In this document: positions 357-6,388 of the stretch, piece after piece
Numbering within the stretch: the stretch's first letter is position 1
Layout of the letters: the number at the start of each line of letters is the position of its first letter
Origin: Polaromonas sp. YR568
GTDB taxonomy: Bacteria; Pseudomonadota; Gammaproteobacteria; Burkholderiales; Burkholderiaceae
Length of the DNA: 7,850 bases
Direction of reading: 5' to 3'
Assembly: GCA_945871335.1 (NCBI GenBank)
Contig: CAMBWM010000109.1
Location: 1 to 7,850 of the forward strand
Program-made: the position numbers and the translations under genes
Notes under the pieces: generated by a model
Seen by the model: only the letters and a program-made list of their open reading frames with translations
What the model was told of the DNA's origin: nothing
Database searches by the model: none

Positions 357-1302
357 AAATAGAGCGCACCAATTGAGGGCCCAGCTTTAGATTAAAAAGG
401 TGCAAGCCGGCCAACACGCCCGGAAAAGCTGCATTCACGTCGGCAGGCGTCCCTTTGACGCCCAGCTCAATGTGGCGACCGTACTCAGCATGGTCCATGC
501 TGGGCAGGCTAAACACCTTGACGCCCGGATGACGCGCTTCAATAGTGAGCATGAGGGGCGTCAGCATGGCCTCCATAGTGCCCATCACGATCACGGATTT
601 TTCAATATAAGCCTGCAACTGGTGCAGGTGACTGAAATGCGTGTCCAGCACCCACTCGACCATGGGCCAGGCCATGACCGGAAAACCAGGAACGAAATAG
701 ATGCCCCCACGCTCACCCGCTGCGTGTGGTTCGCTGCCCCCCGGGGGGGCGCTCGCAGCTTGGGACGGCCCGGCGCTGCTCAGGTCAATACCCCCACGCT
801 CACCCACTGCGTGTGGTTCGCTGCCCCCCGGGGGGGCGCAAAAGAAACCGGGTATTTTGTTGTAGGGGTTGGGAATGATGGAGGCGCCCACCGGGAAGGT
901 GCCCATGTTGAGGCGGTGGATGTTGTCCTCGCGGTCGGGTTCGAAGGGCAGGCCTTGCTCGCGCGCCACGTCTTGCATGCGCTCGCGGATCAGCACTTTG
1001 GCCTGTGGGTGCAGCTCCAGCTCCACGCCCAGGGCGCGCGCTGCGCAGTGGCGCGTATGGTCATCGGGTGTGGCGCCAATACCGCCGAAAGAAAATACCA
1101 CATCACCGCGCTCGCTCGCAGCGGCAAAGGCCCGGGCTAACGTGGCCGTGATGCGATGCGGGTCGTCGCCCACATAATCCGCGTAACTCAGTTGCAGTCC
1201 GCGTGCGGCCAACAGCTCAATGGCTTTGGGCATGTGCTTGTCGGCACGCTTGCCGGAGAGGATTTCGTCGCCGACGATGATGATTCCGAAATGTGGGGCC
1301 AT
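355..1302 (-). CDS. CinA/MoCF-family molybdopterin-binding-domain protein with an in-frame repeat insertion
   Basis: A 315-residue protein of the CinA N-terminal / MoaB-Mog (MoCF) fold family, usually annotated competence/damage-inducible protein A or molybdopterin-binding protein. The N-terminus FGIIIVGDEILSGKRADKH and the motif GGIGATPDDHT (about residues 73-83, counterpart of the family GGTGPTxDD) place it there. It has only the MoCF part; there is no C-terminal NMN amidohydrolase domain as in full CinA, so its biochemical role is uncertain. Residues 155-200 are an insertion containing two near-identical 18-residue copies, APPGGSEPHA(V/A)GERGGI, joined by DLSSAGPSQAAS. Without it the protein would be about 269 residues, near the usual family size, and KIPGFF would join YFVPGFPVMAWPM directly. 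The gene lies 23 nt after the EI24-like gene. The ATG at 1302 lacks an obvious Shine-Dalgarno, so expression may depend on the upstream gene. Confidence 0.85.
   Translation of the reverse strand: MAPHFGIIIVGDEILSGKRADKHMPKAIELLAARGLQLSYADYVGDDPHRITATLARAFAAASERGDVVFSFGGIGATPDDHTRHCAARALGVELELHPQAKVLIRERMQDVAREQGLPFEPDREDNIHRLNMGTFPVGASIIPNPYNKIPGFFCAPPGGSEPHAVGERGGIDLSSAGPSQAASAPPGGSEPHAAGERGGIYFVPGFPVMAWPMVEWVLDTHFSHLHQLQAYIEKSVIVMGTMEAMLTPLMLTIEARHPGVKVFSLPSMDHAEYGRHIELGVKGTPADVNAAFPGVLAGLHLFNLKLGPQLVRSI
704..752 (-). repeat. 49-bp repeat core, copy B
   Basis: This core matches 791-839 at 48 of 49 positions; the single difference turns Val into Ala in the encoded peptide. It contains stem CACGC (708-712)/GCGTG (722-726) and the C6G7 block at 736-750. 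In coding orientation it encodes APPGGSEPHAAGERGG and is the second copy. Confidence 0.9.
791..839 (-). repeat. 49-bp repeat core, copy A
   Basis: First copy in coding orientation, 87 bp from its partner and in the same reading frame. It encodes APPGGSEPHAVGERGG. It has the same internal stems as the other copy: CACGC (795-799)/GCGTG (809-813) and the C6G7 block at about 823-837. Confidence 0.9.
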
Positions 1303-5913: not shown

Positions 5914-5995
5914 TTATTTTGGCTTTTCAGCAAATACATGTTCCCGCTTCGACCTAGACAAGATGGGTCAAAGAGCTTTCATGCCAGCCACCAAC

Positions 5996-6001
5996 AGGGG
6001 A
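5996..6001 (+). promoter_or_regulatory. Shine-Dalgarno selecting the winged-helix gene start
   Basis: AGGGGA lies 6 nt before ATG 6008 and is the best ribosome site among the three in-frame ATGs (5963, 5981, 6008). Confidence 0.6.
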
Positions 6002-6007
6002 TTCACC

Positions 6008-6388
6008 ATGCTTGTGAGAACCATCGAGTCGAAGAACTATCTGAACTTCCTGGCCCGCGTTAAGGAAGTTCGTTTATCACCCCAATACTGCGAACTCAAC
6101 TCGACCGAGGAAAAGCTGCTGAACTTGTTGGTGCCGTCGTGGACCTCGGACACCAAAATCACGGTGCTCAAAGCCATGGGGCTAGACCCTGATATTTCGC
6201 ACAGCACCTCTCACCGCCTGCTTAAAAGCCTGCGACTCAAAGGCTACATCACCCTGTTGAGCGAAGAGCGCGATACCCGCATCAAATACGTAGAGCCGAG
6301 CGAAAAGACAGAGCAATTTTTCACCCAACTGGGACAGTGCCTGCGACGGGCACTCAAACCTCAACCCGAAGTTGTCCTGACAAGCTGA
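6008..6388 (+). CDS. Small winged-helix (MarR-like) DNA-binding protein
   Basis: A 126-residue cytoplasmic protein. Residues about 30-45 (ELNSTEEKLLNLL) form a helix. A helix-turn-helix follows, TKITVLKAMG ... SHSTSHRLLKSLRLKGYI (about 49-81), and then a beta-wing TLLSEERDTRIKYVEPS (about 82-98), with a final helix (about 99-116). The order helix, HTH, charged wing and C-terminal helix is that of MarR-like winged-helix proteins. The start ATG 6008 is chosen because AGGGGA (5996-6001) precedes it by 6 nt; in-frame ATGs at 5963 and 5981 lack as good a site. I do not recognise a named family. It has no Mop domain, so it is not a classical ModE despite lying beside modBC. It is the only plus-strand gene and converges on modC with a 32-nt gap. 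An orphan regulator, perhaps horizontally acquired given its AT-rich leader. Confidence 0.75.
   Translation: MLVRTIESKNYLNFLARVKEVRLSPQYCELNSTEEKLLNLLVPSWTSDTKITVLKAMGLDPDISHSTSHRLLKSLRLKGYITLLSEERDTRIKYVEPSEKTEQFFTQLGQCLRRALKPQPEVVLTS

Follow-up and report, generated by a model that had tools for sequence, protein, structure and literature searches.

An extra segment in a MoCF-domain protein gene of Polaromonas sp. YR568 consists, with a probability of about 0.85, of a full and a partial copy of a non-autonomous, single-strand-structured Comamonadaceae repeat, which was inserted in frame into a working protein and has since changed in copy number. The repeat is dispersed and lies in frame in many unrelated genes, and orthologues free of the insert exist. 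As far as could be found, it forms an undescribed family of protein-coding palindromic repeats, which behaves like the Rickettsia palindromic elements (RPEs) but differs from them in structure, arrangement and host. The preliminary description of the segment is supported in substance, and neither of the two outcomes that it named as refuting is seen, as most orthologues are free of the segment and the core is dispersed in related genomes; changes in tandem copy number, the repeated use of one loop, the fold as a three-way junction and the restriction to two frames go beyond it. The features of the window, which is the whole 7,850-nt stretch of DNA analysed, are collected in Table 1.

Table 1. 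Features of the window, with the evidence for each
Feature	Position	Strand	Evidence or context
Gene of the MoCF-domain (CinA/MoaB-like) protein, host of the insertion	355-1302	minus	315-aa ORF, PF00994; CinA structures lead the fold search
Extra segment, residues 156-201 (APPGGSEPHAVGERGG IDLS SAGPSQAAS APPGGSEPHAAGERGG I)	700-837	minus	Orthologue comparison; pLDDT <50 at 164-197
Full copy of the 72-nt element, profile positions 1-72	703-775	minus	nhmmer; alignment of copies
Spacer separating the full and the partial copy	776-790	minus	Copy-to-copy period of 87 nt = 29 codons
Partial copy, profile positions 24-71, without the left arm	791-839	minus	nhmmer
G+C hairpin block GCCCCCCGGGGGGGC of the full copy	736-750		Sequence; helix 2 of the consensus fold
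Same G+C hairpin block (GCCCCCCGGGGGGGC) in the partial copy	823-837		Sequence
141-aa ORF without a Pfam match	5963-6388	plus	Flanked by a pseudouridine synthase gene and the gene of an ABC transporter ATPase with a TOBE domain

The host protein matches PF00994 (MoCF_biosynth) with 92.9 bits against a Pfam cut-off of 26.6, and its predicted structure is closest in the fold search to CinA of Thermus (E 1.5e-16, 20% identity). The earlier assignment to the CinA/MoCF family holds for the MoCF domain, but this is the only domain found in the Pfam search of the host protein, which is not a full two-domain CinA. The interruption of about 46 codons is confirmed. A comparison with orthologous loci, for which the best 80 of 554 confirmed stretches were taken, puts the surplus of the window protein at about 46 residues, situated between KIPGF and YFVPGFP; the chosen anchors are 6-13 residues apart in 68 of the 80 loci, further apart in 12, and separated by 49 residues in the window, and most orthologues are without residues 156-201. 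The proposed 87-bp unit in 1.6 copies also stands, with two 52-nt direct repeats (701-752 and 788-839) that are 96% identical and 87 nt apart; the profile built from the element copies finds a full and a partial copy here (Table 1). The nearest locus, L001 from a Rhodoferax MAG (96% identity over a 151-residue query), has one partial copy at the site where the window has 1.6, and other relatives carry one to four copies, part-copies and remnants there. The segment had been read as a landing of an element inside a gene; it does belong to a dispersed repeat, but the MoCF site does not record a single clean landing.

The element profile was built from 124 unique full-length copies of all loci, the window's included, and these copies give a single consensus with a 72-nt body, CGCCGGGCCGCCCCAAGG...GCCCCCTCGGGGGGCAGCGAACCACACGCAGTGGGGAGCGTGGGGGC. 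The left border of the element is fuzzy, and the flank profile has a weak preference on the right side. A DNA search with the segment (E <= 0.01) finds the element in all 14 related genomes, which were hand-chosen among genomes with orthologues, and 82 of 100 genomes drawn from the Comamonadaceae contain it at E <= 0.001, with at most eight candidates scored in most genomes. The C6G6 repeats that the preliminary description had named for this family are real, and they lie both between genes and in unrelated genes. Across the order, the element is present in 12 of 150 genomes by sequence search (six candidates scored) and in 20 of 200 by covariance model search (24 candidates scored). With 150 candidates scored in each genome, the covariance model finds at least 107, at least 134 and at least 95 copies in three genomes and 19, 9 and 30 in three others; four element-negative genomes re-tested with it gave no match. 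Five of 72,556 plasmid records match the element, phage records give no match at E 1e-3, and positions 1-2300 of the window have no near match among plasmids. No known Rfam family is matched at its gathering score, the three hits lying far below it (E 0.47-1.8). A sub-type with a different left arm, the GCCGCGGAACCGGCTT type, recurs in L004, L064 and several loci of G113 (e.g. L168 and L174), and in L004 it occupies the same MoCF loop.

The consensus fold of the element is a three-way junction, in which an outer stem of five pairs (GCCCC/GGGGC) encloses a G+C hairpin and a second hairpin, while the first nine positions are unpaired. The second hairpin varies in sequence but keeps its pairing. 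Over 34 aligned copies, of which a script chose 26 for diversity and eight were added by hand, 94.1% of 639 cells are paired (89.4% in shuffles) and there are 37 two-sided changes (12.9 in shuffles), neither value being reached by any of 500 shuffles; the test favours the structure, since this was derived from the same 34 sequences. Also in excess are the pairs that show a two-sided change (5 against 3.3; 10 of 500 shuffles reached 5) and the further pair types (19 against 15.8; four of 500 reached 19), and slid structures are only 51-66% paired. The outer stem and the G+C hairpin are nearly invariant and so say little on covariation; four pairs of the second hairpin account for 35 of the 37 two-sided cells. 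Compensatory changes preserve the fold, and the covariation across copies is strong evidence of this. The self-complementarity claimed earlier is borne out across copies but not by individual ones: single cores fold no better than dinucleotide shuffles (z -0.08 to -0.89), so that the palindromy of one copy is weak evidence. The whole window segment gives z -2.20 on the plus strand and -0.85 on the minus strand against the same type of shuffle.

Copies internal to genes make up 83 of the 204 profile hits in the analysed loci and 61 of 171 after removal of same-place repeats and of copies with too little flank, with genes called by an in-house codon-usage script rather than taken from annotation, so that gene ends may be off. 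These copies represent 42 distinct gene contexts, five of which are the MoCF gene. Pfam domains are matched in all 30 contexts that were run, 11 of the 42 lying outside this run, and in the window's own gene, and they are situated on both sides of the inserts or across them. Hosts with Pfam matches include GlyQ, KsgA, an EPSP synthase with a cytidylate kinase domain, TrpE, GcvT, a glyoxalase-II-type hydrolase, a sterol desaturase of the fatty acid hydroxylase family and an acyl-CoA synthetase; PriA, a helicase, a topoisomerase, PDH E1 and a LipB-like ligase are also among the hosts, and PEP carboxylase (ppc) has the element at two different sites. The names MetX, HrpA, AidB, LipB and sterol desaturase are the author's reading of the matches. 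GlyQ with its insert has 306 residues over a 278-position profile, and its residues 195-221 take the place of three residues in PDB 7qcf_A; a structure model of GlyQ was discarded (pLDDT 45, from an alignment of seven rows that was too shallow). In a protein search with the insert region, 116 of 180 candidates match at E <= 0.01. Three of the 116 bear other domains, the aminomethyltransferases P0025 and P0043 and P0097 (PF00155, PF01212), which is read as threonine-aldolase-like, so the insert peptide occurs in unrelated proteins. The element is in frame, too, in a protein annotated as belonging to the Fic family and encoded on a plasmid of Rhodoferax antarcticus. Several copies per gene are seen in a ValS-like gene (L081:275-837, G008), which has three copies read antisense in frame, two in tandem and the third about 340 bases further on, and in an RND transporter gene (L114 / L219, G102), which has six head-to-tail copies with an 84-nt period, amounting to about 165 residues.

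The MoCF host gene is under purifying selection. In ten comparisons its flanks give dN/dS values of 0.059-0.105, with dS near saturation (about 0.9 or more) in nine of them; L001, at a moderate distance (dS 0.33), gives 0.082 and is unaffected by saturation. These low values make it very likely that the gene is functional. In the host structure model (overall pLDDT 81.6, pTM 0.64), pLDDT is below 50 at residues 164-197 of the insert, whereas the two strands connected by the insert (152-155 and 200-204) belong to blocks of mean pLDDT 84-90. The insert apparently survives as a disordered, floppy loop, and the suggestion that the peptide is tolerated as a loop agrees with the model.

The frame in which the element is read is restricted. 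The core is read in two of the six frames, one per strand, in 27 of 29 cases outside the MoCF gene, which were pooled by hand from overlapping loci and families, with ppc counted once per strand, the frame of L110 reassigned by eye because its anchor had fallen in the left arm, and L078, L151 and L155 dropped for want of an anchor. Seventeen cases use the sense frame (GGSEPHAVG) and ten the antisense frame (GSLPPEGA), and the two exceptions are L143 (lipB-like) and L224; the two-frame binomial P of 1.1e-10 treats the cases as independent and can serve only as a guide. Among 74 intergenic copies, the share without a stop is 72-97% whichever of the six frames is taken, so stop codons do not explain the use of two frames. 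The ends of the element vary in phase (ERGG or SVGA; APTLP or PPRSP), while the frame of the core is constant, which points to a filter that acts on the peptides of the surviving in-gene copies and not on the phase of integration. Translated in its unused frames, the consensus would yield peptides that are strongly cationic or contain Trp, Cys or Phe; since the antisense frame that is used also has Cys and Trp in many copies, a harmless peptide is no sharp criterion.

Filled and empty sites can be compared at glyQ, which was found in 28 of the 30 genomes queried. The insert is present in G003 and G058, and in G062 as judged by match length only; G056 and G008 have decayed inserts, and the site is empty in G002, G005, G006 and G007, whose sequence ahead of it is 97-98% identical to that of G003. 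A target-site duplication is not visible against these close empty relatives at glyQ, the one such site viewed, where the borders are blurred. The left border of the insert, TDTGSAPGR, is common to G003, G056 and G058, with the close relatives of G003 empty (L226-L230), and the filled allele may have been exchanged between species by recombination or may be an old inheritance. A tree of 103 MoCF proteins contains 27 with an insert, six with a remnant and 70 with neither, 22 of the 27 coming from the insert search and P0013 having been dropped because its right anchor is missing. This quick tree needs at least ten changes between insert-or-remnant and none, in which gains and losses are indistinguishable and for which recombination may be responsible; the sub-type with another left arm in L004 and L064 speaks for one separate gain or more. 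Even close relatives differ in copy number. The window has two copies and P0042 one, in flanks that are 98% identical, and among proteins with near-identical flanks P0001 has four, P0002, P0006 and P0014 three each, and P0018 two. Inserts are decaying in L002, L021, L023, L034, L036, L064, L229 and L230.

Adjacent copies lie head to tail on the same strand in 37 of 37 pairs in the analysed loci, part of which were found with a two-copy tandem query that favours tandem arrays. The commonest tandem period is 84 nt and most are 84-87 nt. With one mixed array set aside, the period is divisible by three in 17 of 18 intragenic and 12 of 18 intergenic arrays; since the usual unit of 84 nt corresponds to 28 codons as it stands, no special unit is required for arrays in coding sequence. 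Of the non-internal copies, 109 distinct ones are complete at the right; by raw count, 54 of these have the right end at -3 to +10 bp of a stop codon facing it, 18 have it further off, and 37 have no facing stop within the searched range. Intergenic copies next to stops are seen, for example, in L166-L205, and copies in this position may have a role in termination or insulation. In the single-contig genome G113, 40 of 113 candidates were scored, giving 40 places of which 39 were fetched; these contain 41 copies, seven internal, three overlapping a gene end and 31 intergenic. As coding sequence makes up 86% of this DNA, the element strongly avoids genes, and its internal copies resemble survivors.

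Two rival readings are given next to no weight. A native tandem repeat born in the MoCF gene would explain the 87-nt period within that gene and is refuted by the dispersal of the same sequence between and inside unrelated genes across the family. Artefacts of metagenome assembly or gene calling come to mind because many loci are from metagenome-assembled genomes and the genes were called by script, but Pfam domains flank or span the inserts and intragenic copies are present in the named isolates Polaromonas sp. A23 (L004), Curvibacter sp. PAE-UM (in aroA and gloB; G014) and Rhodoferax sp. TS-BS-61-7 (in an aidB-like gene; G013), and also in Rhodoferax antarcticus with its Fic family protein. 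That the peptide has been co-opted, the loop or an mRNA hairpin altering activity, folding or translation speed, is unlikely. Such a role would fit the repeated use of the same loop, which at glyQ involves five filled or decayed cases in addition to the MoCF changes and recurs in ksgA, an accC-like gene, gcvT and the sterol desaturase gene, and it would fit the constancy of the core frame while the ends change phase. Inserts nevertheless decay, copy number differs among near-identical proteins, and the same peptide is found in unrelated enzymes, for which tolerance suffices as an explanation.

It is also quite improbable that the element is a classical REP or REPIN moved by a RAYT (Y1) transposase. 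All 16 chosen element-bearing genomes have a Y1_Tnp match, exactly one in 14 of them, and many copies lie just downstream of genes, as described for REPs in the accessible text of PMC3733652. A match is, however, also present in 14 of 18 element-negative genomes and in 17 of 19 further element-positive ones, so that the presence of Y1_Tnp does not discriminate, and 18 Y1_Tnp loci, taken with flanks of about 1.5 kb as far as the contig reached, contain no copy of the element. A GTAG/CTAC tag is near either end in only four of 108 copies, head-to-head or tail-to-tail pairs of the REP type are absent from the 37 adjacent pairs, and the branched 72-nt three-way junction differs from the 20-40 bp hairpin of a REP.

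According to the accessible parts of the literature, RPEs (Ogata 2000, via reviews) are dispersed palindromic repeats found between genes and in frame in unrelated conserved genes (PMC10969869, PMC2229807), 105-146 bp long with terminal inverted repeats forming a long stem-loop (PMC2229807), and are treated further in PMC2996958. The parallel with RPEs drawn in the preliminary description holds for behaviour, as the element is palindromic, dispersed and in frame in the 42 gene contexts, and adds a predicted peptide to unrelated conserved proteins. It fails for size and terminal stem: the Comamonadaceae element has a 72-nt body folded as a three-way junction with a short outer stem, is arranged in head-to-tail arrays, mostly of an 84-87-nt unit, and often has its right end beside a stop codon. 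REPs, as far as the accessible text of PMC3733652 describes them, are high-copy, mostly downstream of genes and in several species, Thauera included, also inside some ORFs; CGTC REPs are without a dedicated transposase, and some RPEs are tied to CGTC repeats (PMC3733652). The element resembles REPs in being high-copy and palindromic with many copies just downstream of genes, and differs from the CGTC type in its end, which is CGTC in two of 108 copies, CGCC in 92, CGCA in 10 and CGCT in four. Thauera is a betaproteobacterium. The names Acidovorax, Comamonas, Variovorax, Polaromonas, Rhodoferax and Delftia are absent from the main text of PMC3733652. Set beside a MITE, which has terminal inverted repeats and a target-site duplication, the element has an outer stem that is not terminal on the left, and at glyQ, where the borders are blurred, no duplication is visible. 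Stable mRNA structures just after stop codons have been described as ribosome termination structures in the accessible text of PMC7518266; many intergenic copies are likewise placed just after stops, but those structures are a general property of 3' regions rather than a repeat family, and a link between the two is conjectural. The Rhodoferax ferrireducens paper mentions palindromic repeats only as CRISPR in its accessible text (PMC2755013). Among the papers listed by the literature searches, several of which listed part of their finds and all of which miss most subscription journals, none describes the element, which may be in print elsewhere; among the matches listed for the insert peptide strings all are to the short string GERGG and none is on this subject.

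The reading preferred here is that the element inserted in frame into a beta-hairpin loop of a working MoCF-domain protein and that its copy number then changed, in the window's lineage probably by 29-codon units. Spread would depend on a process involving ssDNA or RNA that recognises the three-way junction, and the covariation supports the need for single-strand structure; no mobilising enzyme was found, and RAYT does not fit. Most surviving insertions would lie outside genes, many just after stops, where transcribed hairpins may act as a terminator or a ribosome-insulating structure. Within genes, a copy would survive only if it leaves the reading frame intact, is placed in a loop and presents a peptide that can be tolerated, and such a filter would explain the use of two of the six frames. 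A wider proposal, made tentatively and with rather less than even odds, is that the repeat is a family-specific three-way-junction mobile element which spreads through ssDNA or RNA unlike REP/RAYT systems and is a recurrent source of new protein loops, landing beside stops or in loops, with two tolerated peptide frames and head-to-tail growth in steps of 28-29 codons.

For annotation, a peptide of the APPGGSEPHAVGERGG type should be taken as a repeat and not as a homologous domain. Palindromes inside genes are best known from Rickettsia and Wolbachia, which are intracellular and have decaying genomes, and drift is the usual explanation for them. The Comamonadaceae are mostly free-living bacteria, and here the insertion of a repeat into genes runs across the family and reaches essential enzymes. 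Some genomes have about a hundred copies or more, filled and empty close relatives exist, and isolates are among the hosts; the movement of the element, the filter on its insertions and a possible role of selfish DNA as a source of protein loops are therefore open to test in this family.
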